Source of the DNA: [Clostridium] citroniae WAL-17108 | GTDB taxonomy: Bacteria; Bacillota; Clostridia; Lachnospirales; Lachnospiraceae | Reading direction: 5' to 3' | Length of the DNA: 64,000 bases | Assembly: GCF_000233455.1 (NCBI RefSeq) | Contig: NZ_JH376420.1 | Span: forward strand, 701,829 to 765,828 | Shown: piece after piece, positions 5,975 to 21,411 of the stretch | Numbering within the stretch: the first letter of the stretch is position 1 | How the letters are laid out: every line of letters starts with the position of its first letter | Translations under genes and position numbers: made by a program | Notes under the pieces: generated by a model | The model's database searches: none | Told to the model about the DNA's origin: nothing | What the model saw: only the letters and a program-made list of their open reading frames with translations

Positions 5975-7075
5975 TTAAATCTTTCTCAAATCCTTCAGGC
6001 ATGTTTTCACTTCAGCCAGCTCCCTGTTCTTTTCATTCAGGGTCCCAAACCCGGAAAGGCAGCAAATTACCTGTTCACAGGATTTTAGCACAGAGACTGC
6101 CCGCTCGTAGGTTGTATCCCGGATGGGCTCAAAGGGGATTTCTGATATCACCTCCGATGCCAGGGCCTTTGCTACGGGATAATCCATATCATTCTCGTGA
6201 AGGATACCGGCGGCAAAGGGGATTCCCTGGCGCTGCAGTCTCCTGTAAACCGGTATACCGCTTCCGTTTCCGCCTATGACAAAAACTTTTGGCTCTCCTT
6301 TCACCGGCTCCATCTCAAGACAGCCCATTTCCGCATGATAGCTTCCCTTGGTAATGCCATAAAGTTCTTTAATATAGGAAGACACAAAGATCTCTTCCGG
6401 AGTACCGCAGCGTTCAATGGCATTTCCCTTTACACATACAACAAAATCCGAAAGCTTCTGGGCCAGATCCAGTTCATGGAGGGACATGAGCACTGCCACC
6501 TTTTTTTCGCGGACCAGGTCTTTAAGGATGGTCAGCAGTTCCAGCTTATGACGTATATCTAAAAAGGAGGTTGGTTCATCCAGAACAATTGCCTCGGGCT
6601 CCTGGCAGATGGCGCGCGCCAGAAGGATCCTCTGTTTTTGTCCATCGCTGATCTCCATAAAATCCCGGTCTGCCAATTCCCCGGCATGTACCAGTTCCAT
6701 GGCCTCCCTCACCTTTTCATGATCCGCAGCCGTAAGGATCCCCAGCCTTCCCGTGTAAGGATATCTGCCCGTGCCCACCACATCCTTGCAGGTCATAAGC
6801 TCCGGGCGGATCCGCTCAGTCATCAGAACCGACATGCGTCTTGCGATCTGCTTTTCCGTCATTCCCTCCATGGACTGTCCATCCAGGTATACGGTCCCCC
6901 CAAGAAGGCCCAGCTGCCGGATGATACTTCTCAAAATCGTGGACTTCCCCGCACCGTTTGGCCCGATCAGGGTAACGATCTCTCCCCGCCTCACATGGAG
7001 TTCAATCTGTTCGATCAGGGGAATCCTGCCATAACCCACTGTCATATTTTCTGTGAAAATGTAATCCTCTGCCAT
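5975..7075 (-). CDS. FecCD-type ABC importer ATPase with extra C-terminal domain
   Basis: 366 residues from the ATG at 7075 (AAGGAG just upstream); a GTG at 7105 would add ten residues. Walker A is GPNGAGKST, the signature is SDGQKQRILLARAI, and Walker B ends in AIVLDEPT, with a switch His in SLHELD. This is the FepC/BtuD group energising uptake of corrinoids, haem or siderophores. After the ATPase (about 250 residues) comes a domain of about 110 residues opening with VFVIGGNGSGIPVYRRL, a Rossmann-like start not usual in this family. It is the last gene of the riboswitch-controlled operon. Confidence 0.85.
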   Translation of the reverse strand: MAEDYIFTENMTVGYGRIPLIEQIELHVRRGEIVTLIGPNGAGKSTILRSIIRQLGLLGGTVYLDGQSMEGMTEKQIARRMSVLMTERIRPELMTCKDVVGTGRYPYTGRLGILTAADHEKVREAMELVHAGELADRDFMEISDGQKQRILLARAICQEPEAIVLDEPTSFLDIRHKLELLTILKDLVREKKVAVLMSLHELDLAQKLSDFVVCVKGNAIERCGTPEEIFVSSYIKELYGITKGSYHAEMGCLEMEPVKGEPKVFVIGGNGSGIPVYRRLQRQGIPFAAGILHENDMDYPVAKALASEVISEIPFEPIRDTTYERAVSVLKSCEQVICCLSGFGTLNEKNRELAEVKTCLKDLRKI

Positions 7076-7106
7076 TATCTCCTTCACCTCACTGCATAGC
7101 TTCACC

Positions 7107-8126
7107 CTACTGCATACCTTTTCTGCCCCGCACCATCATATAGATGACAATGGGCGCGCCAAACACTGCCGTGACCGAACTGATACTGAGCTCTGTGGGC
7201 GCAAATACGGTCCTGGCAACCAGATCACAGAACAGGCAGAAAACCGCTCCGCCCAAAAAACATCCGGGAATCACCATGATTGGCCTGGCCGTCTTAAACA
7301 GGCTCTTTACCAGGTGGGGCACCGCGATCCCCACAAAGGAGATAGGGCCTGCAAATGCTGTCACACAGGCAGAGAGAATGCTGGACATCAGGATCAACGC
7401 CACTCTAAATCTCAGGATATTGACCCCCATGTTCTGTGCGTACACCTCTCCCAGCTGATATGCGCTGATGGGTTTTGCCATGAGGAACACCAGGAATAGC
7501 GACAGGAGGACGACCCCTGTCATGACCCGAATATTTTCCCAGGACATCCCTGAAAAACTTCCCATAGACCAGTTGTGAAGATTCACAATATTGGCATCAT
7601 CAGCAAAGGTTACCGCAAAATCCGTTATGGCGGAACAGATATAACCGATCATCACCCCGCATATGACCAGCATGGACATCTTCTTTACCTTGCCGGATAT
7701 AAGAAGGACAAAACCCATGGAGATCATGGCGCCTGCAAAGGCTGCCAGGATCATGGCAGCGGAGCTGACGGACATCCCCTTTCCCAGCATGAAGATCATC
7801 AGCAGGGATACCACCAGTTTGGCGCCGGAAGAGATACCCAGCACAAAGGGACCTGCAATGGGATTGGCAAAAAAGGTCTGGAGCAGGAAACCGGACACGG
7901 ACAATGCCCCTCCCAGAATAACAACGGCCAGGATCCTGGGAAGCCGTATATCCCATACAATATGATAGGCGGTGCTATCCCCTGTTTGATCTGTCAGTAT
8001 TTTCCCTATTTCCCCCGCCGACAGGTGGACGCTGCCCGAATTGATATTCCAGAAAAGCAATAGGATCAGCATGGCTGTCAGAAATGCAAAGGAAACCGCG
8101 TATCTTATATATGTCCTTTTTGTCAT
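7107..8126 (-). CDS. FecCD/BtuC-family ABC permease
   Basis: 339 residues with about ten membrane segments. Family motifs include LRLPRILAVVILGGALSVSG near residue 60, NPIAGPFVLGISSGA near 90 and GPISFVGIAVPHLVK near 265; the last is the coupling region that touches the ATPase. Normal length for BtuC/FhuB-type permeases, which work as homodimers with an ATPase and a substrate-binding lipoprotein. Both partners flank it. The cobalamin riboswitch at the head of the operon favours a corrinoid, cobalt-chelate or tetrapyrrole as substrate. Confidence 0.9.
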   Translation of the reverse strand: MTKRTYIRYAVSFAFLTAMLILLLFWNINSGSVHLSAGEIGKILTDQTGDSTAYHIVWDIRLPRILAVVILGGALSVSGFLLQTFFANPIAGPFVLGISSGAKLVVSLLMIFMLGKGMSVSSAAMILAAFAGAMISMGFVLLISGKVKKMSMLVICGVMIGYICSAITDFAVTFADDANIVNLHNWSMGSFSGMSWENIRVMTGVVLLSLFLVFLMAKPISAYQLGEVYAQNMGVNILRFRVALILMSSILSACVTAFAGPISFVGIAVPHLVKSLFKTARPIMVIPGCFLGGAVFCLFCDLVARTVFAPTELSISSVTAVFGAPIVIYMMVRGRKGMQ

Positions 8127-8150: not shown

Positions 8151-9344
8151 TTATTCCAGCCGGTATATGTAATTCATTTCCTGTGGTTTGGGTTCGTCCT
8201 CTGTAAGGATCCTGTGAATGTCCAGGATCATATCCCCCAGTCCCATGGTTTCCTGGAACAGGTTCTTCCCCGTACACCACACATTTCCCTCTTTAACCGC
8301 CTTAAAATCAGCCAGCAGGCTGCTTTTATCCAGAAGCTCATCCAGTGATCTCAGTTCCCCATCGATCGTGCTGTTGTAAATAAGACAGTCCGCATCCTTT
8401 ACCGTCGCATAAAAGGCCTCCATCTGCATGTTCATGGTGGACAGGGCATTTTTATGTTCGTCCAGATCCTGCGGCACATAGGTTCCTCCTGCAAGGTCGA
8501 TCATCCTGGCCACATAGTCCCCGGATTTTCTCACATTCACATATCCGTTGGAGCTGATATAGAAAAAAGCCACTGTCTTGCCGGTTTCCTCCTGATCCAT
8601 CACCGGCTGCAGATGTTCCACCTGCTCTTTAAAACAGGACTCTGCCAGTTCCTCTCCGCCCAACATCACCCCGTACAGCTTTACCCACTCCATCCGCCCC
8701 AATGGGTGGTTCTCATAGCTGGAACGCTCCACAAACACGGGGATCCCCAGCTTTTCCAACTGCTCCTTTACCTCGGGCGAATGGTAGATCATAGTGGATT
8801 CAATGGCCAGGTCACATGAGCCTGACAGGATCCGTTCATAATCCGGCGCATTGTATTTGCCGGCAAAAAGCATCCTGCCCTCCTCCATCGCCTTCCTTGC
8901 CTCCCGGATATACCATCCTGAGGCATCTGTCCCGGACAGGGTGATCCGGTCCACGCTGTCCAGACTGCAAAATAGATCCATGGCTGAGGTGGCTGCCAAA
9001 TAGATATTCTTTAAGGGCTGCCTGATCACTGTCACATCATCAGGAAGCCCTTCCCATGGCTCCCGGTCCTCCGGCACCACCAGGTAGCGCCTGTTGTCCT
9101 TAATGGTGATCATGGCATAGTTGTCATCATAATAATCCACTGAAAACTGGTCCGCATAGAGAAGTTCCATGGTGCGGCGGATTGTCTGTTCACTCCATTT
9201 TCCTGCGGACTTAGGCGTTGTGGACTGAGCTGTCACGGCCTGGGGCGTTATGAACGGATCTCTTTTAGGAGAACAGCCCCAAAGGACGGAAAAAATCAGG
9301 GCAACCAGCGCCAGTATTAAACAATATCTGTTTTTTTTCATCAT
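8151..9344 (-). CDS. Substrate-binding lipoprotein of the FecCD-type importer
   Basis: 397 residues. A lipoprotein signal (FSVLWGCSPKRD) anchors it to the outer face of the membrane. The body matches a peripla_BP_2 (BtuF/FecB) fold: two lobes joined by a long helix, with segments such as VTVIRQPLKNIYLAATSAMDLF and GKTVAFFYISSNG. Its start codon overlaps the previous gene's stop (ATGA). Family members capture B12, haem or siderophores for the membrane complex. The ligand cannot be read from the sequence. Confidence 0.85.
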   Translation of the reverse strand: MMKKNRYCLILALVALIFSVLWGCSPKRDPFITPQAVTAQSTTPKSAGKWSEQTIRRTMELLYADQFSVDYYDDNYAMITIKDNRRYLVVPEDREPWEGLPDDVTVIRQPLKNIYLAATSAMDLFCSLDSVDRITLSGTDASGWYIREARKAMEEGRMLFAGKYNAPDYERILSGSCDLAIESTMIYHSPEVKEQLEKLGIPVFVERSSYENHPLGRMEWVKLYGVMLGGEELAESCFKEQVEHLQPVMDQEETGKTVAFFYISSNGYVNVRKSGDYVARMIDLAGGTYVPQDLDEHKNALSTMNMQMEAFYATVKDADCLIYNSTIDGELRSLDELLDKSSLLADFKAVKEGNVWCTGKNLFQETMGLGDMILDIHRILTEDEPKPQEMNYIYRLE

Positions 9345-10354
9345 TCAGCCCTTTTTAGTGTTGAAGAGTCAAAGATCAGTGTGTAGCTGATCTCATGGGG
9401 CCGGCTCATGGCAATGGTGTCTGCGATCACGGGGATTTTCCAGTCAAAGCCATTTACCGGGATCTCAAAGGCGGAATTGCCTTCCGTGTTGATCAGTTCA
9501 AATTTCTCTTCATCCACTTTCATATAATCATAATTGGAACTTCCCCAGATAATGGTTGCCAATGCCTTTCCATCTTCCACACGAAGCACTGTGGGTGACT
9601 CCACTGCGGCCCGCCCGGAACCTCCTTCCAGCTTCACTTCCACGGTGTAGGACCCATCCTCCAGCTTCAGGCTCTCAACCGTTGTCATCTTACTGTCCGC
9701 AAATGCATCCAGCGGAAGGGATTGGGATCGGAACACCAGGACCCGGTCATACCATTTCTCTTTATTCTTACTGAAGGCGCTGCAGTCTATCTCCTGATCC
9801 AAGGCTGCCACAGGCACCGTAAATGTATGTACTCCGTCCTTTGTCTCCACATAAGGGACAAAATCCTGATCAGAAGCCTTTTGGGCTTCCTCCCCGGTAC
9901 CCATATACAGCTTCAGGTACCCCGTGCCCCCCATGGTCATGACCGCGCTCATGGAGCCGTCCTTGACCGTAAGTTCGCATTCGGTGATGCGGAACATATT
10001 GGAGCTGGACTCCACCGCAACCGGATAGACGCCGTCTTTCAATTCATCGCCGTAGACCGGCTCGCTTTCATGATCCGCTTCCCTGTTTTCTTTGGCTTCT
10101 CCGGTTTCCATGGACTCTCCGGTTTCCATGGACTCTCCGGTTTCCATGGACTCTCCGTTCTCTTCCGATTCCTTTGCTGATCCCATGGTCCCTGGTGCCC
10201 CGGTCACCGCCCCACCGGAATCATCTGGGGAAGCTGTTCCCCCGCAGCCGGCAGCCATCAGGCTCATGGCAAATATAACTGCCGCTAATCGTGTCCTATA
10301 TAAACTGGCCTTACGTAAATAGGTCTTACATAAACTGTCTTTATATAAACTCAT
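9341..10354 (-). CDS. Lipoprotein with two NEAT-like repeats
   Basis: 337 residues. A lipoprotein signal ends in SLMAAGCGG. A Glu/Ser-rich spacer contains three SMETGE repeats. Two related beta-sandwich modules follow (about 105-205 and 220-335). Each opens with DGxYxVxV, continues to LxVxDGxxxA, and ends with a Gly-Tyr pair of the kind seen in haem-binding NEAT / iron-transport-associated domains. The resemblance is by pattern only, so NEAT membership is a hypothesis. It sits between the CbiK lipoprotein and the ABC importer. A role as a surface tetrapyrrole or metal-chelate receptor is inferred. Confidence 0.6.
   Translation of the reverse strand: MSLYKDSLCKTYLRKASLYRTRLAAVIFAMSLMAAGCGGTASPDDSGGAVTGAPGTMGSAKESEENGESMETGESMETGESMETGEAKENREADHESEPVYGDELKDGVYPVAVESSSNMFRITECELTVKDGSMSAVMTMGGTGYLKLYMGTGEEAQKASDQDFVPYVETKDGVHTFTVPVAALDQEIDCSAFSKNKEKWYDRVLVFRSQSLPLDAFADSKMTTVESLKLEDGSYTVEVKLEGGSGRAAVESPTVLRVEDGKALATIIWGSSNYDYMKVDEEKFELINTEGNSAFEIPVNGFDWKIPVIADTIAMSRPHEISYTLIFDSSTLKRAE
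10098..10157. repeat. 18-bp in-frame tandem repeat (SMETGE)
   Basis: Three perfect 18-bp units start at 10098, 10116 and 10134 and encode SMETGE in the linker after the lipobox. Copy number may vary between strains without changing frame. Confidence 0.85.
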
Positions 10355-10417
10355 ATGCGTTCCACCTTTAAAAGGGCGATCAGCAAACTTCCCCGACCGC
10401 CCATTCTTCCTTTTGAT

Positions 10418-11473
10418 TTACTTTGACAGACTTTCAACCGCAGCCTTGGCATGCTCCACAAAGAGCTGCTGTATGGCTTCCATCTCCCCAAGTCCGCGGA
10501 CAAGGCATGTCACCTCATATCCGGCGTCCTCGAAGGTCTTTTTCCAGGATCCCTCTTCGTCCCCCGCCATATCATTGTTGGCATGATCACCTGCAACAAT
10601 CATTAACGGCTCCAGCACTACCTTTTTGTAGCCGCCGGCCTGAACAGCTGCCAGAACATCCTCAACCGTGGGAGATGCCTCCACTGTTCCCACATAATAA
10701 TTCTTATAGCCTGCATCTGTCAGCATGTCCTGCATCTTAGAGTAAACCTGATTGGATTCCGCCTCAGTGCCATGACCCATAAAGCAAATGGCGGTCTCTC
10801 CGTCATCATACTCGGCTGTTGCCTCTGTGATAGCCTTGATCACAGCCTTAAAATCATCATCTGTGGTAAGCAGAGGCTCTCCCACTGCAACCTTCTCAAA
10901 CGCATCCGAGTACTCCGCCACTTCATTCACAAGATCCGTATATTCCAATCCATTCATCAAATGGGTCGGCTGGATCACCAGGTTCTTAACTTTATTGTCA
11001 ACCGCGCGATCCAATGCTTCCCCCACATTATCAATGGAGACCTGATCCCTGGATTTTACATGGTCAATGATGATCTGGCTGGTAAATCCTCTTCTCACGG
11101 AATAATCCGGGAACGCCTTCTCAATGGCATCCTCAATGGCTCCCACTGTAAGACGCCTGTTATCATTATAGCTGGTACCAAAGCTGACCACCAGAAGTTC
11201 ATTCTCACCGATCTCGTCCTGATTTCTGGTATTGTCCAGGGACGCATCACCTGTGTCGTAGTTTTCCTCATCCTCTTCAGCTGCGTTTTCTTCTGCCATT
11301 GTTTCCTCTGCTGTTGTGGTTTCTGAATCAGTTTCCTTTGCAGTTGTCTCCGCGGTCGTCTCCGGGGCTGCGCCAGCGGCAGCCGTCTCCTTCTGCCCGC
11401 CTGAACACCCGGCCATCACTGTGGTTGACAGGGCTGCTAACGCAAATAAAACTACCAGTTTTTTCATTTTCAT
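10418..11473 (-). CDS. cbiK: Lipoprotein-anchored anaerobic cobalt chelatase (CbiK family)
   Basis: 351 residues from the ATG at 11473, placed by GGAGG at 11483-11487. An N-terminal lipobox (TTVMAGCSGG) and an acidic/Thr-rich linker precede a CbiK domain that opens with ELLVVSFGTSYNDNRR. The three metal-binding residues of CbiK are kept: His in CFMGHGTE (about 232), Glu in GTVEASPT (about 264) and His in VAGDHANND (about 297). CbiK inserts Co2+ into sirohydrochlorin in anaerobic B12 synthesis and is normally cytoplasmic. A surface-tethered form recalls periplasmic CbiK(P) of Desulfovibrio. It is the first gene behind a cobalamin riboswitch and precedes a NEAT-like lipoprotein and an ABC importer. 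Confidence 0.85.
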   Translation of the reverse strand: MKMKKLVVLFALAALSTTVMAGCSGGQKETAAAGAAPETTAETTAKETDSETTTAEETMAEENAAEEDEENYDTGDASLDNTRNQDEIGENELLVVSFGTSYNDNRRLTVGAIEDAIEKAFPDYSVRRGFTSQIIIDHVKSRDQVSIDNVGEALDRAVDNKVKNLVIQPTHLMNGLEYTDLVNEVAEYSDAFEKVAVGEPLLTTDDDFKAVIKAITEATAEYDDGETAICFMGHGTEAESNQVYSKMQDMLTDAGYKNYYVGTVEASPTVEDVLAAVQAGGYKKVVLEPLMIVAGDHANNDMAGDEEGSWKKTFEDAGYEVTCLVRGLGEMEAIQQLFVEHAKAAVESLSK

Positions 11474-11826
11474 CTTCCTTTTCCTCCTTTTTTTGTAACA
11501 CAATATCGGTCTATAAAAGGTATAGGAATGTACTGAAGGATCCTCCCCAGTATCTGATGATATCTCAAACCGGCAGTTTTTCGCAAAAACAAGCAGCAGA
11601 AGTTTTCTTTGCGTGTATGTATCCGCCCAAAGTCTCCTGCCCTGCAAACTATATGTATCTCCAAAGCAAAAAAATCTGTCCATGTCTAAGAGTCAGAAAT
11701 CCGCGGTTGAAACGTATGCACCGTTTAAAACATATGAATGGTTTAAACATAGGAACGCTCCGAAGCACCACAGACCGGCACAACCAATTACTCGTGATTT
11801 GGAAGTGTATTCCTGTACCAACAGCT

Positions 11827-12010
11827 GGCAGGTTTCCTGACTTGCAGATCAACACGCATAACCGCCTTCCCAATCCGCTTCGGATCAGTGACCGTACATG
11901 ACGCAGGTCATGCGCTCCTTACTTACAGTGACGAGATCGTACAGGTTTTTCACCTGTTTCCCTATTATCCATTGTCTGCCAAAGCAGACACCGGCACCGG
12001 CTGTTCTTAA
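11827..12010 (-). ncRNA. Cobalamin riboswitch
   Basis: Read on the minus strand, the conserved core is present in order: GGGAA..CAGGTGAAAAACCTG, then GTCACTG near 11925, the CACTG and GGGAAGGCG block near 11870, and the terminal B12 box GTCAGGAAACCTGCC at 11827-11841. These are the classic blocks of adenosylcobalamin-type riboswitches. It would lower expression of the CbiK/ABC operon when corrinoid is plentiful. The expression platform lies somewhere in 11474-11826. I did not find a clear intrinsic terminator there, so control may be at translation. Confidence 0.9.
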
Positions 12011-12023
12011 CTCGATATGCTTT

Positions 12024-12052
12024 ATCCTACCACTTAATGGCGAAAAATGCAA
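12024..12052 (-). promoter_or_regulatory. Promoter of the riboswitch operon
   Basis: On the minus strand TTGCAT (12047-12052) and TAGGAT (12024-12029) are separated by 17 bp. This places the transcript start about 10 bases before the riboswitch core. Confidence 0.6.
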
Positions 12053-12086: not shown

Positions 12087-12119
12087 AAAAAATGCTGCCC
12101 ATTGGCATGAGCAGCATTT
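12087..12119 (-). terminator. Intrinsic terminator of the cut microcompartment operon
   Basis: AATGCTGC/GCAGCATT with a 12-nt loop followed by a T run on the minus strand, 34 bases past the last shell gene. It insulates the riboswitch operon promoter just downstream. Confidence 0.8.
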
Positions 12120-12152
12120 CCAAAACCTGATCTGGTCCCTAACCTGTTACGG

Positions 12153-12437
12153 CTATACTTCCTTTACAGCCGGAAGAATGACCTCCACCTCTGCATGGGG
12201 ACGCGGGATCACGTGTACGGACACCAGTTCTCCCACTCTCTGGGCTGCCGCTGCACCGGCATCAGTGGCTGCCTTGACGGCGCCCACATCGCCTCTTACC
12301 ATTACGGTTACCAGGCCGCCGCCCACAAACTCCTTGCCGATCAGCGTAACATTTGCTGCCTTTACCATTGCGTCAGCTGCTTCGATAGAGCCTACCAGTC
12401 CCTTTGTTTCGATCATTCCTAATGCATCATACTTCAT
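12153..12437 (-). CDS. BMC-H hexameric shell protein, last gene of the operon
   Basis: 94 residues, a single pfam00936-type BMC domain: [47 protein letters not shown] and the C-terminal VHVIPRPH. Such proteins form hexamers that tile the facets of microcompartments; the loop around GGG lines the central pore. It is nearly identical to the first gene of the operon (27541-27828) over the first 80 residues, and both differ clearly from the two shell proteins at 25509 and 25869. AGGAGG precedes the ATG. Terminator follows. Confidence 0.95.
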
Positions 12438-12474
12438 TTGATTGTCCTCCTGAAATTTCTATTATGTTTTTATT

Positions 12475-13161
12475 TTATTTAATGATCTTTACAGTGGAAG
12501 AAGAATCCAGCCCCAGGGCATTGGCTTCCTCCGTATCAATGTGGCATTCCAGACCGGACTGGCCGGTTACGCGCACAATGGTGTTTCTCAAAATGCCGCC
12601 GCGGATCCCGTCTATTTCCAGGCTTACATTCTGTCCGTCATGCACCCCAAACCGGGCAGCATCCTGGGGCAGCATATGGATATGCCGCTGCGCGGCCATC
12701 AGCCCTTCCTTTGTCTGGACAGAGCCCCTGGGACCTATAATGGTAATTCCCGGCGTTTTGTCCAGGTCCCCGGACAGCCTGGCAGGAGCCTTGATCCCCA
12801 GTTTAAAGGAGTCCCCGGACAGGATCTCCACCTGTGTCCTTGGGCGCACCGGTCCCAGGATCCGGACCTTCTCAATAGCACCCTTGGGACCGCAAATCGT
12901 AACTGTCTCCTTGCACGCATATTGTCCCGGCTGGGACAAATCCTTCATCTTTGTCAGCTCATACCCTGCACCAAAGAGATCCGACAGATCTTCACGGGAA
13001 AGGTGTACATGACGGTTGGAGATGCCTACAGGGATCCTGTCGTCCTTCTCAGGGCACTGACCACCGGCCTGACCGCTATCCTGACCATTGGCCTGACTGC
13101 CCAAAGCATCCTCCTTTGCAGCTTTCATCAAAAGCCTGATTATTGCCTCATACTGATCCAT
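12475..13161 (-). CDS. pduL: PduL-type phosphotransacylase
   Basis: 228 residues. The N-terminal amphipathic helix MDQYEAIIRLLMKAAKEDA looks like an encapsulation peptide and is joined by a Gly/Gln-rich linker to two PduL beta-barrel domains. Zinc-binding histidines are visible in GISNRHVHLS (about residue 50) and AAQRHIHML (about 140). PduL converts acyl-CoA and phosphate to acyl-phosphate and recycles CoA inside the shell. Here the substrate would be acetyl-CoA from choline-derived acetaldehyde. It follows the active aldehyde dehydrogenase by 15 bases. Confidence 0.95.
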   Translation of the reverse strand: MDQYEAIIRLLMKAAKEDALGSQANGQDSGQAGGQCPEKDDRIPVGISNRHVHLSREDLSDLFGAGYELTKMKDLSQPGQYACKETVTICGPKGAIEKVRILGPVRPRTQVEILSGDSFKLGIKAPARLSGDLDKTPGITIIGPRGSVQTKEGLMAAQRHIHMLPQDAARFGVHDGQNVSLEIDGIRGGILRNTIVRVTGQSGLECHIDTEEANALGLDSSSTVKIIK

Positions 13162-13176
13162 GCTGTCTCCTTTTCC

Positions 13177-14802
13177 TTACGCATCCTGCTGGTTTTTCAT
13201 GGTAGTGATCAGCTGGCGCACCAGGGCTGCCAATTTTTCATCTTCGCATGCAGGTGCTGCACCGGATGGGTCCGGGCTGCCCGTATGTTCCTCTGCATGA
13301 TTCCTCGCTTCATAGGCTGCCACGATTGCCGCCGGACTCATATTCCCTCCGCAGCTTGAGCAGGCCAAAGACGCCTTGGGAGCGGAAACCGGAGCAGGCA
13401 TTGAAACAGCCGCGCCCGGACGGAAGGTTTTGTCATCTTCCATCAGGGTTACGCAGTCTTTCAGGCCGTAAGCCACCTTCTTTATATTGATCAGCTGCAT
13501 GGGACTTACATTCTCCGAAACAGAGCTTCCGCCGCAGGTTCCGCATCCCAGCGTAAATGCCACATTAAGGCCTGTGCTGATTCCTGTTCCGCCCTGGCTT
13601 CCGCCTGTATTCACCAGAATCCTGGATGCCGGCTTGGCTGCAAACTTAAGCACCATGCCGCGGTCCTGGGTATGTAAGCTCATGGTATGGCCAATGCCGT
13701 TTTGCAGCAGATCCATGCTCAGTTTGCAGGCTTCCTTCCAGTCCTTTACCGTGTAAAATGCCAGCACGGTGGTCAGCTTTTCATAGGACAGCGGGTATCC
13801 CTCCCCCACGCCGCCCTGTTCACCGATCAGGACTTTTGTGCCTTCCGGAATAGTGATCCCCGCTTTTTCGGCAATCATCCGGGGAGAGCGGCCCACAAAT
13901 TTGGCGTTCATGCTGTGGCCGTTTTTAAACAGCAGGCTGCACACCTTTTCGGTCTCTTCCTTTGTCATAAAATATCCGCCCTGGGCTTTTAATTCAGCCA
14001 CCACCTGGTCATGGTTGCATTCCTCGCAGATGATGGACTGCTCGGATGCACAGATAGTTCCATTGTCAAAAGTCTTGCTGGCTATGATGGTCCTGACCGC
14101 ATGGCGCACATCAGCAGTCCTTTCAATGTAAGCCGGTGAGTTGCCGGCGCCCACACCAATGGCCGGCTTTCCTGCGCTGTAAGCCGCCTTTACCATGCCT
14201 GGTCCGCCGGTGGCAATGATGATGGATACTTCCTTGCAGTGCATAAGTTCATTGGTGGCACCCATGGTGGGCATGGAAATGCAGCTGATCACACCTTCAG
14301 GCGCTCCCGCCTCCTCAGCTGCCCGGCCCATTAGTTCTGCTGCCTTCAGGGTACATTTTGCAGCTGAAGGGTGGGGTGAGAACACAATGGCATTGCCAGC
14401 CTTTATGGCGATCATGGACTTGTAGATAACAGTGGAGGTGGGATTGGTGGATGGTACGATGCCCATGATCAGGCCAACCGGCTCCGCCACATCCATGGTT
14501 CCCTTATCCTTGTCCTCACATATGATCCCCACGGTATTCATCTCTTTTATATCATTATAAAGAAGGGTGGATGCCGCATGATTTTTATAGGTCTTATCAA
14601 GAACCTTTCCAAAACCGGTCTCCTCCACCGCCATCTGGGCCAGGCAGGCGGCATGTTCCTCCGCGGTTTTGACCATGTTCTGTAATATCCGGTCTATCTG
14701 TTTACTGGTATAACCAGCCATCTGTTTTGCTGCTGCTTCTCCACGGCGTGCCAAATCCCTGGCTTCCTGAATGGATTGCAGATCGTAATCAAAATTTTCC
14801 AT
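13177..14802 (-). CDS. CoA-acylating aldehyde dehydrogenase (CutF/EutE/PduP type), catalytic Cys present
   Basis: 541 residues. An N-terminal helix precedes the aldehyde dehydrogenase fold. The catalytic cysteine is Cys251 in TFDNGTICASEQS, and the cofactor region reads GVGAGNSPAYIERTADVR. After the core (to about 460) there is an extension with CSSCGGN and a terminal helix, DEKLAALVRQLITTMKN, of the encapsulation-peptide type. It oxidises acetaldehyde with CoA and NAD+ to acetyl-CoA within the compartment. Its paralogue at 24001-25512 has lost the cysteine, so this gene is the likely working enzyme. Confidence 0.92.
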   Translation of the reverse strand: MENFDYDLQSIQEARDLARRGEAAAKQMAGYTSKQIDRILQNMVKTAEEHAACLAQMAVEETGFGKVLDKTYKNHAASTLLYNDIKEMNTVGIICEDKDKGTMDVAEPVGLIMGIVPSTNPTSTVIYKSMIAIKAGNAIVFSPHPSAAKCTLKAAELMGRAAEEAGAPEGVISCISMPTMGATNELMHCKEVSIIIATGGPGMVKAAYSAGKPAIGVGAGNSPAYIERTADVRHAVRTIIASKTFDNGTICASEQSIICEECNHDQVVAELKAQGGYFMTKEETEKVCSLLFKNGHSMNAKFVGRSPRMIAEKAGITIPEGTKVLIGEQGGVGEGYPLSYEKLTTVLAFYTVKDWKEACKLSMDLLQNGIGHTMSLHTQDRGMVLKFAAKPASRILVNTGGSQGGTGISTGLNVAFTLGCGTCGGSSVSENVSPMQLINIKKVAYGLKDCVTLMEDDKTFRPGAAVSMPAPVSAPKASLACSSCGGNMSPAAIVAAYEARNHAEEHTGSPDPSGAAPACEDEKLAALVRQLITTMKNQQDA

Positions 14803-14827
14803 GTAAGAATTCCCTCTCTTTGCTTAT

Positions 14828-15517
14828 TTACTGCTCTGTCCTGTCATAAAATGCCTTAAACTCCGTCAGCAGCAAGGTCTTATTTGCCTTGGAAATTTCC
14901 CGGCCTCCAATGCCAAGCTCCGGGTACTCCCTTGCCAGTGCCCTAAGTTCTGTTACCTTCAGGCTGACAAGAGCCCGAACAGCTGTTTCCGCTCCTGATT
15001 CGGCGGCCAGACAGTCCAGTGCGTGGCGGTCCGGGGCGGTTGTGAAGATAATGGGGGGCGTTGGTTCCTCCCAATCCTGTACATTGTCCGCATATTCCCG
15101 GTCTTTTGCTGCATTTATGCAGCCTGCATCCTCTGCTCCGGCCGCATCCTCTGCTCCGGCCGCACCCTCTGCTCCGGCCGCATCCTCTGTGCTTTCCGCA
15201 TCCCCTTCAGCCCCAATGCCGCCCGTTGGCGGTTTCCCGGGCGGCGGCCCGCCGATCACTGTCTCCAATTCCTCGTGGGGCCGGGGAATCACATGGCTGG
15301 ACAGAAGCAGTCCCGCTCCCAGGCGTTCCACTGCTGCCCCGGCCGCGTCCACAGCCGCCTTTACAGCCGCCACGTCCCCGGTTACGGACACATTCATGCG
15401 CCCGCCGCCCACTTTTATCGTTTCAAGGATACTGACGTCCGCTGCTTTTAACATGGCATCCGCCGCTTCTATGGCTGCCAGCAATCCTTTTGTTTCTATT
15501 AATCCAAGGGCCTGCAT
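14828..15517 (-). CDS. Extended BMC shell protein with C-terminal SAP/Rho-N-like module
   Basis: 229 residues. The first 90 are a normal BMC domain (ALGLIETKGLLAAIEAADAMLKAADV and SSHVIPRPHEEL). A Gly/Ala/Glu linker with repeated AEDAAG units follows (about 105-140). The last 75 residues form a separate helical domain ending in LKVTELRALAREYPEL and ISKANKTLLLTEFKAFY. That pattern resembles SAP/HeH/Rho-N modules, which often bind nucleic acid. EutK of the ethanolamine system likewise pairs a BMC domain with a C-terminal helix-turn-helix, but by a different fold. The role of the tail is not known. Confidence 0.85.
   Translation of the reverse strand: MQALGLIETKGLLAAIEAADAMLKAADVSILETIKVGGGRMNVSVTGDVAAVKAAVDAAGAAVERLGAGLLLSSHVIPRPHEELETVIGGPPPGKPPTGGIGAEGDAESTEDAAGAEGAAGAEDAAGAEDAGCINAAKDREYADNVQDWEEPTPPIIFTTAPDRHALDCLAAESGAETAVRALVSLKVTELRALAREYPELGIGGREISKANKTLLLTEFKAFYDRTEQ
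15127..15189. repeat. 18-bp tandem repeat in the extended shell-protein linker
   Basis: Three and a half copies of an 18-bp unit (starts 15127, 15145, 15163, 15181) encode the Ala/Glu/Gly-rich linker. It is in frame, so length variation would be tolerated. Confidence 0.85.
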
Positions 15518-15527
15518 CTTCTACCTC

Positions 15528-16169
15528 CTATACCAGGTCTGCCCAGTTTGCCGGATAGGTGGCGTAGAATATCCTTGCCTTGTCCGGTGACCCCCAGACC
15601 ACCTTAGAGCCGGACGGGACAAACAGCACATCCCCTGCATGGGCGCAGTACGTTGTTCCGTCAATGGTTACGGTCAGAGTGCCCTCAATCACATAGTCGA
15701 TCTCCTCATAGGTCAGTTCCCACTGGAAGTCCGAGTGGTCGATCACCAGAAAACCGGCGCTGATATGGGATTCCTCCTTGCTTACCAATTCCTGGAAATA
15801 AACCTTTGCCTCCGGGTTTCCTGTGTCAAACACATCCATTTTTACTGAATCACCGCGCACGACCTTAAGGCCATTTGGGTGGCGCTGTGAATCGTAGGGA
15901 TCAAGGATCCCGTCTAAAAGTCCCTTGTTTAACAATCCCTTATCCATCAGGGCCTTTAGCACCATATAGATCTGGCCGCTGTCTATGTCCCGGCTTATTG
16001 ATGGGGCATTTCCCCCACCGCTTTCCTTTTTATATGAAAATGTAATTCCAAAGGAGTCAGCTGCATCCCTTGCGGAAGGTGTGATGATCGCGCCCTCACA
16101 GATACAGTACTCTGTCTTTCCTTCCTCCTTCAGGGTTTCCACGTCTTTTGCGCAAACCAGCTGTTTCAT
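15528..16169 (-). CDS. eutQ: EutQ-like cupin protein
   Basis: 213 residues from the ATG at 16169. The C-terminal half is a cupin: HSDFQWELTYEEIDYVIEGTLTV, then DGTTYCAHAGDVLFVPSGSKVVWGSP. The N-terminal half contains the EutQ-type opening (CAKDVETLKEEGKTEYCICEGAIITPSARDAA). EutQ of Salmonella has been reported to have acetate kinase activity and to aid shell assembly. Here it could help turn acetyl-phosphate into ATP and acetate, or act structurally. No other acetate kinase is in the locus. Confidence 0.85.
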   Translation of the reverse strand: MKQLVCAKDVETLKEEGKTEYCICEGAIITPSARDAADSFGITFSYKKESGGGNAPSISRDIDSGQIYMVLKALMDKGLLNKGLLDGILDPYDSQRHPNGLKVVRGDSVKMDVFDTGNPEAKVYFQELVSKEESHISAGFLVIDHSDFQWELTYEEIDYVIEGTLTVTIDGTTYCAHAGDVLFVPSGSKVVWGSPDKARIFYATYPANWADLV

Positions 16170-16217
16170 ACCCTCACTTCCTCTCTGCAATTACCGCTGC
16201 CTTTTCAGGAGCGCATC

Positions 16218-16493
16218 TTATGCATGCTCCATATCAAAGGTGCAGTCCTCGTCTATAATTCCAACCACAACGGCGTCCACCGGAATCTCATCATCCTTAA
16301 GCATCCGGCGGGCAGAGGAACCTGTGGTAATCATGACCCTGTCTCCAATGCCTGCGCTGATGGTGTCTACCACAACCAGCTGTTCCCCGGCTCTGGCTCC
16401 TCCGATCACCTGGGCCAGCATCAGCTTGCAGCCGTTGAGAGCCTCCGCCTTTCTGGTGGCCCATATGTTATCGATCAGTCTTGCAGTTACCAC
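16218..16493 (-). CDS. eutN: BMC-P pentameric vertex protein (EutN/CcmL family)
   Basis: 91 residues, the standard length of EutN/CcmL proteins. Recognisable parts are the N-terminal ARLIDNIWATRKAEALNG, the LMLAQVIG strand and DTISAGIGDRVMITTGSSAR. These form pentamers that cap the vertices of the shell. Its start overlaps the end of the preceding BMC-like gene by seven bases. It is the only BMC-P gene in the locus, enough to close a polyhedral shell. Confidence 0.93.
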   Translation of the reverse strand: MVTARLIDNIWATRKAEALNGCKLMLAQVIGGARAGEQLVVVDTISAGIGDRVMITTGSSARRMLKDDEIPVDAVVVGIIDEDCTFDMEHA

Positions 16494-16792
16494 TCTTCCT
16501 TTCCCTCCTTCTCCTTTTTGCGTATCTCATCCAGGGCAGCCTCCACAGAAGCCGTGTCACCGAAGATTGCCAGCAGGATCATGTTCTGGGGGCAGTTGCC
16601 CCGTATATCCTCCACCGTTACTCCCACTGCCTTTTCCGCCACATCGGCCGCACAGACCATTTCAATCATCCTGCCCTGTATCAGGCCGATGGCATCCGGG
16701 TAGTCCATGGTTTTTGAAGCACCGGACCCCTTTCTGCGGCACAGTATGTCAATGGTGCCCTGGGTGGGCGATTTTATGATTCGGTATTCCAT
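16487..16792 (-). CDS. Divergent BMC-domain-like shell protein
   Basis: 101 residues. The central part (YPDAIGLIQGRMIEMVCAADVAEKA and NMILLAIFGDTASVEAALDEI) has the alternation of a BMC domain, but the N-terminus carries about 28 extra residues with RIIKSPTQGTIDILCRRKGSG. The C-terminus is highly charged. It is clearly not one of the canonical BMC-H paralogues in the operon. Glycyl-radical loci often contain one such divergent shell protein. Its place in the shell is unknown. It is translationally linked to the vertex gene downstream. Confidence 0.7.
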   Translation of the reverse strand: MEYRIIKSPTQGTIDILCRRKGSGASKTMDYPDAIGLIQGRMIEMVCAADVAEKAVGVTVEDIRGNCPQNMILLAIFGDTASVEAALDEIRKKEKEGKEEW

Positions 16793-16849
16793 TGGTTCTT
16801 TCCTTTACTTTCTGCTCAGTTCTCCTTGGCAGACCGGGCTCAGCGTCCG

Positions 16850-17692
16850 TCATCCGCAGGCGCTCGCGCAATTTTTCGCAATTCCAAGGGGTGTTACAAA
16901 CATGGGGTTTGCCGGCTTATAGGTGGGGATCCCGGTTTTCTTCTCTATGATCTCCTCGATTCCCGTGAGGCAGCAGGTTCCCCCCACCAAATAGATCCCG
17001 TCCACATCCCTGCCCTCAATATGGCGGCTGATGATGGCGGAGACCTTTTCAATCACTGGTTTTAATACCGGCAGCAGTTCCCTGTGGTTTTTCCGGTCCC
17101 GTTTGTAAGCATCCGCTTCCTCAAAGGACAATTGATACGCACCTGATATCACCAGCGAAAAATGAGTCCCGCCCGTGGGTTCATCCGCCACGTAAACCAC
17201 CTTTCCATCCTTCAGCACTGAGATGCCTGTGGTGCCTCCTCCGATATCAACCACAGCGCCATTTCGTATATTCAGGACCGCATTGGCTGCAGTAGGCTCA
17301 TCAGGCAGGGCTGTGATCTCAAAGCCCGCACCCTGGACCACATTTTTGATGGCGCCGGAATCCAGGGCATCCGTGCCCGGAGGAATGGCGGCCGCCGCAT
17401 AGACCAGTTCAGTTCCCAGCTTTTTCTCCAGTTCTTCCTTCATTTCCCTTACAATACGGATCGCACCGATGTAGTCCACCACCATTCCGTCCCTGACCAC
17501 ATCCGCATAGCGGTAGGAACCGGCCACCGGGCGGAGATCTTCATCCAGGACCGATACCACCACGCAGGCAGTTCCCAGATCCACACCCGTATAGTATACG
17601 GCGGAGTGTCCTCTTACAGGTTTTTTGATCACGTTTTCAAACTCCCTGACCAGCCGGTCACAGGCTTCAAATGTTAATGCTTCTTTTGACAT
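16850..17692 (-). CDS. eutJ: EutJ-like chaperone (actin/Hsp70 ATPase fold)
   Basis: 280 residues from the ATG at 17692, set by GGAGGAAATAC; in-frame upstream codons lie within the previous gene. The phosphate-binding loops of the actin/Hsp70 fold are present: TGVDLGTACVVVSVLDED near residue 35, AVVDIGGGTTGISVL near 155 and GIYLVGGTCCLTGIEE near 235. EutJ is thought to help fold or load cargo enzymes of microcompartments, though direct evidence is limited. It overlaps the EutT-like gene by 19 bases. Confidence 0.92.
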   Translation of the reverse strand: MSKEALTFEACDRLVREFENVIKKPVRGHSAVYYTGVDLGTACVVVSVLDEDLRPVAGSYRYADVVRDGMVVDYIGAIRIVREMKEELEKKLGTELVYAAAAIPPGTDALDSGAIKNVVQGAGFEITALPDEPTAANAVLNIRNGAVVDIGGGTTGISVLKDGKVVYVADEPTGGTHFSLVISGAYQLSFEEADAYKRDRKNHRELLPVLKPVIEKVSAIISRHIEGRDVDGIYLVGGTCCLTGIEEIIEKKTGIPTYKPANPMFVTPLGIAKNCASACG

Positions 17693-18303
17693 GTATTTCC
17701 TCCAAACGCCAGACAGATCATCTGGGACAGACGGTTGATCACAGGGTAAACAAGTTTCCTTTGGTGTTCGGGGATCTTTCCCGCCAGTTGGCGCAGGGTA
17801 CACCGCAGGAGATGGAGGCGGACAATCTCACGCCCTCTGGGGGATTGGGCGTGAAATCCGGTGACTTCAAAGCAGTCTTCCAGCAGACAGTCCCAGTTGT
17901 CCGGCGTGATACCCGCACAGCCTATACATTCCGGACCTTGGGCCGGGCGCTCCTTTAAAAGTCCTGCCACCCGCCGCTCCAGTGTGAATATCTCCTGGGC
18001 GGTAAGTACATTGATCTCCAGCAGGTCGGAACCTGTCTGCAAAAGCAGCGCCTGAACAGTTCGGATGAAGGCGGCAGTGTCCGAAGAAATTTTGCAGTCT
18101 GCCCCAGATAACCTGATGTCCTCTTTCCTCCCCGGCCCGGCTTCCCCCGGATCCGGCGGGTTGGAATCACAAATCCTGATTTGGCGGTCAATGAGAAATT
18201 GCCTTCCCCCAGGGGTCAGCCGTTCCTGCGGCATGATCACATAGGAGGTAAAGGGCACGGATTTATAGGCCAGGCGCAGGTCATCCTCTGTTATGAATTT
18301 CAT
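17674..18303 (-). CDS. EutT-like protein lacking the metal motif
   Basis: 209 residues. The opening MKFITEDDLRLAYK, the early RLTPGGRQFLIDRQIRI, and the C-terminal helix bundle (LLRCTLRQLAGKIPEH, INRLSQMICLAF) match the cobalamin adenosyltransferase EutT. The HX11CCX2C metal-binding motif described for EutT is missing; the only Cys cluster nearby is ECIGCAG. Choline cleavage by a glycyl radical enzyme needs no B12, so this is probably a repurposed or structural relative. The start uses the ATGA overlap with the alcohol dehydrogenase stop. Confidence 0.75.
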   Translation of the reverse strand: MKFITEDDLRLAYKSVPFTSYVIMPQERLTPGGRQFLIDRQIRICDSNPPDPGEAGPGRKEDIRLSGADCKISSDTAAFIRTVQALLLQTGSDLLEINVLTAQEIFTLERRVAGLLKERPAQGPECIGCAGITPDNWDCLLEDCFEVTGFHAQSPRGREIVRLHLLRCTLRQLAGKIPEHQRKLVYPVINRLSQMICLAFGGNTCQKKH

Positions 18304-19442
18304 CCCAGGCCCCCTTTGCAAAGCCTCCCATATATGTCTTCCAATTCTTTCAGTTCAGGTTTTCTCGGATTGGTCGCCGTACAGTTGTCCTGAAGTGCCT
18401 TTCCTGCCATATCTTCCACCCACTGTCCAAATTCTTCACGCTCTACTCCCAATTCCGTGACCTGCTCCGGAATGCCGATGCGCTTCATCAGATTCCGTAT
18501 CTGCCGTATAAGACAGTGGACCGTGGCCTTCTCTGTACCGGCGGAGATCCCCAGCATATTGGCTATCTGGGCATAACGCAAAAGCGCCTCTGTCTCACCG
18601 GTCTCCTCAAGCCCTGCATTGTATGCGATCACGTGCGGCAGCAGGATGGCATTGCTTCTCCCATGAGGGATATGGAAACGCGCTCCCAAAGCATGAGCCA
18701 GACTGTGGCAGATTCCCAGGGAAGCGCCGTTAAATGCAACTCCCGCCAGGCAGGAAGCATTGTGCATGTGCTCTCTGGCCTCCATGTTGCCTCCATCCGC
18801 CACTGCCTGTTCCAGATATTTCCAAACCATGCGGACCGCTTTTTCCGCGCAGGCGTCCGTAAAGTCCCCGGACCTGGTGGAAACATAGGCCTCCAGTGCA
18901 TGGGTCAATACATCCATCCCCGTATCCGCTGTGATCTGCGGCGGCACGGTGGCTGTAAGCTCAGGATCCAGAAAAGCCGCATCCGGCACCATGGCAGGAT
19001 CCCTCAGGGGATATTTGGCCTGTGCCTGGGGATCGGATATCACCGCAAAGGATGTGACCTCGCTTCCGGTCCCGCTGGTAGTGGGAACTGCCGCCAGGTA
19101 CGGACGCTTTTCCTGCTTCATGGCCGCATAAAGATGGCACACGGCCTTGGCCGTATCAATGGCCGAACCGCCGCCTAAAGCGATCACGGTATCCGGTTCA
19201 AACGCTCCCATTTCCTCAATTCCCTGTGTCACCACCTGGATGGTGGGATCCGGCACAACCTTTGAAAAGATCCGGCTGTCAGCCCCTGTCTCTTTTAACA
19301 ATCCTGCTATCTCCGCTGCTTTTCCTGATTTCTCCATAAATGGATCGCATATAATATATGCCTTTTTGATTTCCAGGCCGCTCAGCCGGGAAAGACATGC
19401 TTTTCCCATATAGATCTTTGTGTTCATTATAAATTCTTCCAT
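18300..19442 (-). CDS. Iron-dependent alcohol dehydrogenase (CutO/EutG type)
   Basis: 380 residues from the ATG at 19442, which has AAGGAGG eight bases upstream. Fe-ADH motifs: ALGGGSAIDTAKAVCHLY (about 90), TSGTGSEVTSFAVISD (about 135) and GICHSLAHALGARFHIPHG (about 258-276), where the histidines bind iron. It reduces acetaldehyde to ethanol and reoxidises NADH made by the aldehyde dehydrogenase, so the cofactor cycles inside the compartment. An N-terminal helix of a few residues may aid encapsulation. Confidence 0.92.
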   Translation of the reverse strand: MEEFIMNTKIYMGKACLSRLSGLEIKKAYIICDPFMEKSGKAAEIAGLLKETGADSRIFSKVVPDPTIQVVTQGIEEMGAFEPDTVIALGGGSAIDTAKAVCHLYAAMKQEKRPYLAAVPTTSGTGSEVTSFAVISDPQAQAKYPLRDPAMVPDAAFLDPELTATVPPQITADTGMDVLTHALEAYVSTRSGDFTDACAEKAVRMVWKYLEQAVADGGNMEAREHMHNASCLAGVAFNGASLGICHSLAHALGARFHIPHGRSNAILLPHVIAYNAGLEETGETEALLRYAQIANMLGISAGTEKATVHCLIRQIRNLMKRIGIPEQVTELGVEREEFGQWVEDMAGKALQDNCTATNPRKPELKELEDIYGRLCKGGLG

Positions 19443-19487
19443 GTTCTGTCCCTCCTTTCCGTCAATCATTCTATAACATTGGCTCTT

Positions 19488-20003
19488 TCATTCCGCTTTC
19501 TCTTTTATTCCGGCTGCCTCAAGACAGCCTTTCACTTCCCTTCCCAGTGCTTTCAGACCTGTCTGGTCCAATATGCTGGTCCTTAGAAAGGGGTTCCTGA
19601 TTCCGGCCCTGGCAAGCTGCTTAAAACAGGCCTCCATCCGTCTGCCATCCGAAGCCGTCAGGTCGCATTTTGTGACAACGCCCAGGACCGTACAGGGAAA
19701 CACCCTGGCAAATCCCGGCGGATAAATCTCTCTTTTTCCCGTGGAATCCGCCAGCATCAGCACACAGCAGGCGTCCTGGGCCGCTGCTATGAGGTGATGG
19801 CGCATCCAGGGACTTTCCAAATAGGCGCCCGGCGCCTCGATGACCGCGCCCCTGTACACCAGGGTGGGAGTACGCCTGTTCCAGCTGTCCGGGTTTTCCC
19901 CCCGGGCAGCGCCCGGGAACCAATCCTGTTGGTCCAGCCATCTTCCCAGGGAGCTTTTCCCGCTCCGCCCGGCTCCGATTATCATGATCCGCTTATTCCT
20001 CAC
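19488..20003 (-). CDS. eutP: EutP/PduV-like small GTPase
   Basis: 171 residues. The P-loop is IIGAGRSGKSS (about residue 9), and the base-recognition motif is VVTKCDL (about 108). The G3 region is altered (VIEAPGAYLESP), as is usual in the EutP/PduV family. PduV has been linked to microcompartment positioning; EutP of Salmonella was reported to have acetate kinase activity. It overlaps the EutS-type shell gene by four bases. Cytoplasmic face of the shell is the likely site. Confidence 0.88.
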   Translation of the reverse strand: MRNKRIMIIGAGRSGKSSLGRWLDQQDWFPGAARGENPDSWNRRTPTLVYRGAVIEAPGAYLESPWMRHHLIAAAQDACCVLMLADSTGKREIYPPGFARVFPCTVLGVVTKCDLTASDGRRMEACFKQLARAGIRNPFLRTSILDQTGLKALGREVKGCLEAAGIKEKAE

Positions 20004-20374
20004 GTCCTTGTGATCTCCGCTACATTAAATCCCAGAAGCCCTGACAATGTACTGTTTACCGCTCTCAGGGCCGTATCCACGCTTTCCACATCCCCGGCAA
20101 CCACCACGGATCCGGTGAACCGGTCCAGGAACCCGATCTGCACATTGGATGCTTTGGCCGCAATATCCGCCGCTATGATGGCTGTTTCAAAAGGACTTAA
20201 GGTCAAAATGCCAATGGCTCCCAGGGCATCAATGCCAAGGCACTCATAAACTTCCGGCACCGGCGAGGCGATCACATGTGCAATGGTCACCTGTTTGCCC
20301 GGCACCGATTCCTCAATCACTCTTCTGACATCCCTGTTATCTGCAAGGCACATCCCTGTCAGCTCCTTTCCCAA
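20000..20374 (-). CDS. Circularly permuted BMC shell protein (EutS/PduU/CutR type)
   Basis: 124 residues. The order of elements is permuted relative to ordinary BMC-H proteins: the stretch KQVTIAHVIASPVPEVYECLG precedes ALGAIGILTLSPFETAIIAADIAAKASNV and SVVVAGDVESVDTALRAV. This is diagnostic for the EutS/PduU class, to which the choline shell protein CutR belongs. Members form hexamers whose N-terminal strands make a small barrel over the pore. Single copy in the operon, directly after the activase. Confidence 0.9.
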   Translation of the reverse strand: MGKELTGMCLADNRDVRRVIEESVPGKQVTIAHVIASPVPEVYECLGIDALGAIGILTLSPFETAIIAADIAAKASNVQIGFLDRFTGSVVVAGDVESVDTALRAVNSTLSGLLGFNVAEITRT

Positions 20375-20426
20375 CTGTTTGCGGCATCCGGTCCGCCGCT
20401 GATCAGTGGCTGGTCAGTACTGCCGT

Positions 20427-21380: not shown

Positions 21381-21411
21381 CTTCCTATCTCCATTCATGG
21401 CATCAAACGCC

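Follow-up and report, generated by a model that had tools for sequence, protein, structure and literature searches.

Why should a chelatase of cobalamin (vitamin B12) synthesis be anchored outside the cell, next to an importer and under the control of a B12 riboswitch? The question is raised by an operon in a 64,000-nucleotide stretch of the genome of [Clostridium] citroniae WAL-17108 (contig NZ_JH376420.1, positions 701,829 to 765,828; this whole stretch is referred to below as the window), in which a homolog of the cobaltochelatase CbiK carries a lipoprotein signal. The answer proposed here, to which we give an even chance of being correct, is that the operon encodes a surface relay that feeds a cobalt-loaded ring precursor into B12 synthesis. 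All of the operon genes are on the minus strand and are read toward lower coordinates. In the order of reading, the features are:

12088..12121, minus strand: terminator-like hairpin with a T run (z -4.38; 0 of 200 shuffles as stable)
11810..12016, minus strand: cobalamin riboswitch aptamer (RF00174), the operon leader (E 3.2e-24, full-length model)
10418..11473, minus strand: exported CbiK lipoprotein, 351 amino acids from its likely start (PF06180; lipobox by sequence pattern)
10374..10402, minus strand: hairpin with a T run in the gap between cbiK and the NEAT-like gene (z -3.22; 1 of 200 shuffles as good)
9341..10354, minus strand: lipoprotein with two homologous NEAT-like modules, M1 (about 10057-9713) and M2 (about 9679-9350)
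8151..9344, minus strand: substrate-binding lipoprotein (SBP) of the importer (Peripla_BP_2, E 4.4e-26)
7107..8126, minus strand: FecCD/BtuC-type permease (FecCD, E 2.3e-80)
5975..7105, minus strand: importer ATPase with a C-terminal extension of about 120 amino acids (ABC_tran)

An earlier note on the window, made from its letters alone, had described a riboswitch leading a CbiK operon, a CbiK with a lipobox and three metal ligands, two NEAT-like modules within one lipoprotein, and a BtuFCD/FecCD-type importer after them, and each of these elements was recovered. The riboswitch scored 101.5 bits with RF00174, whose gathering score is 31.5. It was the sole Rfam match above gathering score within the window and the sole RF00174 match found in the genome, for which 150 of 439 first-look candidates were scored. 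The hairpin at 12088..12121 parts the operon from the microcompartment genes upstream, and the one at 10374..10402 is a possible attenuator or mRNA 3' end; both were identified by folding against shuffled sequences, and a pattern scan listed neither.

The CbiK reading frame is listed from 11683, and its likely start is the ATG at 11473, which lies behind a good ribosome-binding site. From this start the N-terminus reads MKMKKLVVLFALAALSTTVMAGC, with a lipobox-like cysteine at residue 23. The protein matched PF06180 with an E-value of 4.9e-85 and 1qgo with 3.1e-78 by profile. Its metal ligands (H234, E265, and H297) were invariant across 17 aligned sequences, and the His/Glu/His site was identical in all 46 exported CbiKs of the survey described below. 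Among the 49 cytosolic CbiKs viewed, both histidines were present in 49 and the glutamate in 43. Because the ligands were kept in every exported CbiK, the idea that the protein has degenerated to a mere binding protein is disfavored. The score against NCBIfam NF047852 was 237.8 bits, below the equivalog cut-off of 400, so that, judged by its sequence, the window protein is a homolog and is not certified as a standard sirohydrochlorin cobaltochelatase. Four exported-type CbiKs had no clear lipobox: in L078 (8034-10277) a long Lys/Thr-rich stretch lies ahead of the CbiK domain, and L081, L082, and L091 have a Sec-like signal without a cysteine.

By hhalign, the two modules of the NEAT-like lipoprotein were homologs of one another (98.5%, E 3.8e-15). 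The window protein itself scored 21.3 bits against PF05031, below the gathering score of 32.8, and 41 of its 53 aligned homologs matched that model at E ≤ 0.01 (best 5.6e-11); a profile search gave no solved structure for it at E ≤ 1. NEAT domains carry a YxxxY heme-ligand motif that includes the iron-ligating tyrosine. With the register of the motifs set by eye, M1 has K198 and Y202 (KxxxY in 53 of the 53 sequences). In M2, position 320 is histidine in 45 sequences and tyrosine in 8, and is followed by Y324 in all 53, so that [H/Y]320-x3-Y324 sits where the NEAT motif would lie. In the importer proteins Peripla_BP_2, FecCD, and ABC_tran were all far above cut-off, and the more specific equivalog cut-offs were not reached by the permease (BtuC model PRK03784, 221.7 bits, cut-off 334) or by the ATPase (corrinoid ATPase model PRK09536, 212.4 bits, cut-off 537). 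The nearest solved relative of the SBP by profile was 5joq, Lmo2184 (E 4.4e-9), which we take to be a heme-uptake protein. The C-terminal extension of the ATPase (window 5975-6343) aligns with PRK09536, below its cut-off, and is kept in most relatives, 41 of 55 homologs being 359-387 amino acids long.

Conservation of the operon was examined in 295 genomes of the order, which contained 46 exported CbiK genes, 45 of them in loci long enough for gene order to be read. Whether the genes stay together had been named beforehand as one of the points on which the proposal could fail, and a NEAT-like module, SBP, FecCD permease, and ATPase were found together in 33 of the 45 loci (at least one NEAT-like module in 39, SBP in 40, FecCD in 39, and ATPase in 38). 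A second set, the named loci (Lachnospiraceae, Ruminococcus, Oscillospiraceae, and others), comprised the best 80 of at least 583 confirmed; these match the window's own clade best and are therefore not a random sample. All parts were present in 62 of them and both modules in 77. Eleven of the other 18 have less than 4 kb of contig downstream, while L173, L174, L183, L220, L221, L233, and L238 had parts missing despite 6 to 10 kb; no partner gene at all was seen beside CbiK in L220 and L233. The operon was often joined to cbiP, cbiC, cbiD, or cobD. Forty of the 45 exported cbiK genes besides that of the window were checked for a riboswitch, which was found upstream of 31 (14 of 20 and 17 of 20 in two batches).

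Several loci encoded neighboring parts as single proteins. CbiK was fused to NEAT-like modules as CbiK-M1 (nine order loci), M1-CbiK (two), and CbiK-M1-M2 (four order and four named loci), and the modules were fused to the SBP as M2-SBP (13 order loci) and M1-M2-SBP (three order and five named loci). In L090 a single open reading frame of 917 amino acids holds CbiK, a NEAT-like region, and SBP; this NEAT-like region was seen by phmmer, with module profiles finding M1 only and Pfam giving no match. Since the fusions run in the order CbiK, M1, M2, SBP, they suggest that a ligand is handed over in that direction and on to the permease. In a scan of fetched loci, cytosolic cbiK directly adjoined cbiL in L046, L047, L053, L101, L102, L117, L119, and L120, and no exported cbiK was seen directly beside cbiL.

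The distribution of exported CbiK followed that of the corrin pathway. CbiK was above cut-off in 123 genomes, of which two with fragments only (G180 and G107) were dropped. The remaining 121 comprised 38 with exported CbiK only, 8 with both kinds, and 75 with cytosolic CbiK only; 37 of these 75 were classed by short open frames, their CbiK sequence not being viewed, and three proteins that lacked a clear signal and nested with the exported ones (L060, L086, and L096) were counted as cytosolic. Of the 113 genomes with CbiD, 46 had exported CbiK, and of the 182 genomes lacking CbiD not one did (Fisher 6e-23, uncorrected for ancestry, with the class of 15 of the 26 CbiK genomes that lack CbiD taken from gene length only). 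A short, cobalt-type CbiM was found in 0 of 38 exported-only genomes, 1 of 8 with both kinds, and 35 of the 49 cytosolic-only genomes with CbiD, where short was assumed to mean an open frame of at most 302 amino acids. CbiM of any length was present in 8 of 38 and 37 of 49, respectively (p 4.5e-7). If ring and cobalt enter together by way of a chelatase outside the cell, a separate cobalt importer would not be needed. No CbiX was found outside a CbiK gene in the 46 genomes with exported CbiK; every match to the CbiX model fell inside CbiK genes.

Early steps of ring synthesis were also found less often in these genomes. The tests for HemB and precorrin-2 dehydrogenase covered 34 of the 49 genomes that have CbiD and solely cytosolic CbiK. 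HemB was present in 14 of the 38 exported-only genomes, 6 of the 8 with both kinds, and 29 of the 34 cytosolic-only genomes tested; it thus went undetected in 24 of 38, of which 22 are at least 90% complete, versus 5 of 34 (p 3.3e-5), a weak match in G157 that was below cut-off and had an internal stop being scored as absent. The contrast held when stratified over three families (p 3.5e-4), in a test that left out 14 cytosolic-only genomes and also four exported-only ones from f5 and f18, none of which had HemB. Precorrin-2 dehydrogenase (PF13241, E < 1e-20) was present in 19 of 38, 7 of 8, and 29 of 34 genomes of the three classes, and hence not found in 19 of the exported-only versus 5 of the cytosolic-only genomes. 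Neither enzyme, these two being the early steps that the genome-wide searches covered, was found in 18 of the 38 exported-only genomes. The clearest single case is in family f11, where hemA, hemC, and cobA-hemD lie within the cbi clusters of G211 and G259. The fetched cluster of G054, from the same family, has the same order of cbiD, cbiK, ATPase, FecCD, and cbiC, with cbiL present, and lacks hemA, hemC, and cobA-hemD.

The host of the window shows part of this pattern. In its genome (6.65 Mb, 41 contigs) the exported lipoprotein is the sole CbiK, and no separate CbiX, no CbiM, and no HemB were found. Genes for CbiG, CbiD, CbiF-CbiH, CbiJ, CbiE-T, CbiA, CobS, CbiB, CobD, CbiP, and CbiC lie on one contig, CbiL on a second, and HemC, CobA-HemD, and a CysG-N-type protein on a third. 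Family models back the assignments of CbiD, CbiF-CbiH, CbiL, CobA-HemD, HemC, and CysG-N; the other pathway names come from reading of the sequences.

The proposed mechanism is drawn from the export signal, the kept active site, the operon and its fusions, the co-occurrence with CbiD, and the missing early and cobalt genes, and the substrate, the chelatase activity outside the cell, and the direction of transfer that it specifies are predictions from these features. Under cobalamin shortage the riboswitch would permit expression of the operon. The lipoprotein CbiK would bind a scavenged tetrapyrrole of the sirohydrochlorin type outside the membrane and insert Co2+, and the cobalt complex would be handed over M1 and M2 to the substrate-binding lipoprotein. 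Import by the FecCD/ATPase pair would then deliver it to the corrin pathway in the cytosol, which it would join at CbiL in the window genome. The work of two parts, the chelatase of the cytosol and the cobalt transporter CbiMNQO, could in this way fall to a single system, and the cell would be freed from synthesis of its own ring. The fuller idea, that cobalt uptake, surface metallation, and precursor salvage form a complete extracytoplasmic branch of B12 synthesis in one machine, is put forward tentatively, as somewhat less probable than an even chance. The earlier note had suggested an extracellular route for tetrapyrrole or cobalt, tied to corrinoid need. The route is supported by the gene linkage and the ligands kept in 46 of 46 proteins, and the removal of metal, which the note had allowed beside insertion, is possible and not favored. 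The tie to corrinoid need is supported by the riboswitch upstream of 31 of 40 further operons. The survey made the idea more specific: the system accompanies the corrin pathway (CbiD in 46 of 46 genomes), would replace cytosolic CbiK and cobalt-type CbiM in 38 genomes, and follows the loss of ring synthesis. In outline, the suggestion of the note thus holds.

Several observations weigh against this proposal. Exported-only genomes that keep HemB (14 of 38) or precorrin-2 dehydrogenase (19 of 38) may make the ring inside the cell, which would leave metallation outside unexplained. In the window genome itself the pathway beyond porphobilinogen is kept (HemC, CobA-HemD, and CysG-N), and CysG-N might be a cobalt chelatase in its own right. 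Of the 34 tested genomes that have CbiD and solely cytosolic CbiK, five (G045, G147, G153, G163, and G177) also had neither early enzyme detected. In the stretches fetched, CbiL was seen for only 3 of the 18 genomes in which both early enzymes were not found (G188, G054, and G222); the entry point may therefore differ, or CbiL may lie elsewhere, as in the window genome. NEAT-like modules were absent from 6 of the 45 order loci: L045 and L048-L051 have FecCD and ATPase in or beside cbi clusters, with an SBP by profile in four, and L103 has two SBPs and an ABC-2 transporter pair. L071, L076, and L078 encode CbiK and M1 with no SBP, FecCD, or ATPase nearby despite more than 8 kb downstream. Because the genomes are related, the p-values overstate their independence.

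The phylogeny of CbiK belongs among these points. All 46 exported proteins fell under one branch together with eight cytosolic ones, but the support of that branch (92/57) is too weak to establish that export arose once. FetB of Porphyromonas gingivalis, which aligned over the whole CbiK domain (9b86, E 6.5e-74 by profile), joined CbiKP of Desulfovibrio vulgaris outside the exported clade; the branches were long, and the program flagged the join as possibly false. Identity of exported CbiK with FetB by descent is not supported by the tree, although the branches are long.

The alternative that survives best is that the operon acquires cobalt only. Here Co2+ would be captured, perhaps on a self-made or ambient tetrapyrrole carrier, with synthesis of the ring staying inside the cell, where a CysG-N-type protein would metallate it. 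The absence of short, cobalt-type CbiM from all 38 exported-only genomes fits this explanation, as do the 14 that keep HemB and the 19 that keep precorrin-2 dehydrogenase, and control of cobalt import by an adenosylcobalamin riboswitch is described in the available part of PMC7689651. The cobalt transporter covered by these counts was CbiM. For the 18 of 38 genomes with neither early enzyme detected, however, cobalt alone would not yield a ring, and CbiK, the NEAT-like modules, and the FecCD-type SBP all resemble binders of tetrapyrroles. We consider cobalt acquisition alone unlikely.

A plain BtuFCD-type importer of cobalamin or cobinamide, in which CbiK and the NEAT-like lipoproteins act as surface binders of corrinoids comparable to BtuG and BtuH of Bacteroides, would account for the B12 riboswitch and for the permease and ATPase scoring best against the BtuC and corrinoid ATPase models, albeit below their cut-offs; Bacteroides surface lipoproteins are described, in the accessible part of the source, as serving B12 uptake. 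But the genomes that need import most, the 182 without CbiD, include none with exported CbiK, which weakens the case for a simple corrinoid importer, and a strictly kept chelatase triad is unneeded for mere corrinoid binding. This explanation is therefore improbable. Use of heme or porphyrin as by Porphyromonas FetB/IhtB, with CbiK removing or swapping the metal and the importer taking up metal or porphyrin, is very improbable, for although FetB aligns with the whole domain, NEAT modules are present, and the nearest solved SBP is presumably a heme-uptake protein, control lies with a cobalamin riboswitch, the link to CbiD is strict with cbi genes in the same operon, FetB and CbiKP stand apart from the exported clade in the tree (on long branches, their place unsure), and M1 has Lys198 in 53 of 53 sequences where the iron-ligating tyrosine of NEAT domains would be expected.

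The surroundings of the operon were considered as well. The genes upstream, at window 12153-23979, belong to a microcompartment and encode its shell protein, a phosphotransacylase, dehydrogenases of the aldehyde and alcohol types, a glycyl-radical enzyme of 855 amino acids, and a radical S-adenosylmethionine (SAM) protein that is probably the activase of this enzyme. By reading of its sequence only, the glycyl-radical enzyme is choline lyase-like; it is no obvious B12 enzyme. The possibility that the relay operon serves the microcompartment was rejected, since the locus holds a glycyl-radical enzyme with its probable activase and since the operon has different neighbors where it recurs, as compared without models for microcompartment genes. 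An ABC-2 transporter pair was seen in L044 (8161-10506), L059 (14745-17049), and L103 (7382-8967): directly behind CbiL in the window genome, behind the relay operon and CbiL in G274, and in the gap between exported CbiK and FecCD in G184. This pair might export a tetrapyrrole; as the exporter of the system it was set aside, its permease occurring in just 3 of 181 scanned sequences.

Parts of the proposed surface relay have counterparts in known systems. CbiKP of D. vulgaris (2xvx) likewise places a CbiK fold outside the cytoplasm and keeps the residues. It is not known to have a conserved importer beside it. It also sits on another branch of the tree, and D. vulgaris has two CbiKs according to the title of Lobo et al. 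2008. Cytosolic CbiK with CbiMNQO belongs to the same chelatase family and pathway step, and several cytosolic cbiK genes likewise have a riboswitch immediately ahead of them; the difference is that this CbiK works inside the cell, beside cbiL and in some of the fetched loci also cbiM. In Isd-type NEAT heme relays of Gram-positive bacteria, surface NEAT modules likewise relay a tetrapyrrole by way of an SBP into a FecCD importer. The relay described here differs from these in its B12 control, in the chelatase at its head, and in its M1/M2 modules, a distinct family that matches PF05031 weakly.

The closest counterpart is found in P. gingivalis, where IhtB/FetB with IhtACDE likewise combines an external CbiK-like lipoprotein with an ABC (ATP-binding cassette) importer (PMC10913741). 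In the portions of the sources available, IhtB/FetB is proposed to work on the metal bound in external tetrapyrroles (PMC10913741, PMC13402209) and the system is read as one for heme or iron (PMC10913741; for FetB, PMC13402209). It differs in having an outer-membrane TonB receptor, in that no NEAT modules are named in those portions, and in its assignment to heme or Mn-porphyrin rather than to B12; P. gingivalis is also reported, in the accessible part of PMC6461909, to be without the steps to precorrin-2. The earlier note had known of no description of the combination found in the window. That stands for this relay and its role, of which no account in Clostridia was found in the open-access literature, including the available parts of PMC6593275, PMC7689651, and PMC12654859, with subscription papers mostly outside this coverage; it does not extend to the pairing of an ABC importer with an exported CbiK-like lipoprotein, which IhtB/FetB already represents (PMC10913741, as far as available). 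An exported CbiK with an importer is thus already known, and this relay and role appear new. If the proposal is true, a biosynthetic metal insertion has been relocated outside the cell, and the Porphyromonas Iht system may have to be reassigned.

The relay also bears on tetrapyrrole precursor salvagers, mostly Firmicutes, which have a corrin pathway without early ring synthesis (Shelton et al. 2018, PMC6461909). According to the accessible part of that work, 180 species were assigned to a class whose cobamide synthesis depends on an outside supply of a tetrapyrrole precursor or of a later intermediate, the use of 5-aminolevulinic acid (ALA) was tested in three species, and no importer for later precursors was proposed. 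The operon is a concrete and widespread uptake candidate in gut and rumen Clostridia. If true, the proposal would explain how bacteria unable to make the tetrapyrrole ring still keep a corrin pathway, and gut communities, which are known to share B12, would exchange tetrapyrrole intermediates as well. The 18 of 38 exported-only genomes that have CbiD and neither early enzyme detected are candidates for the salvager trait; of the two enzymes, the window genome lacks HemB only. The relay is a candidate for the missing uptake step of the known salvagers.

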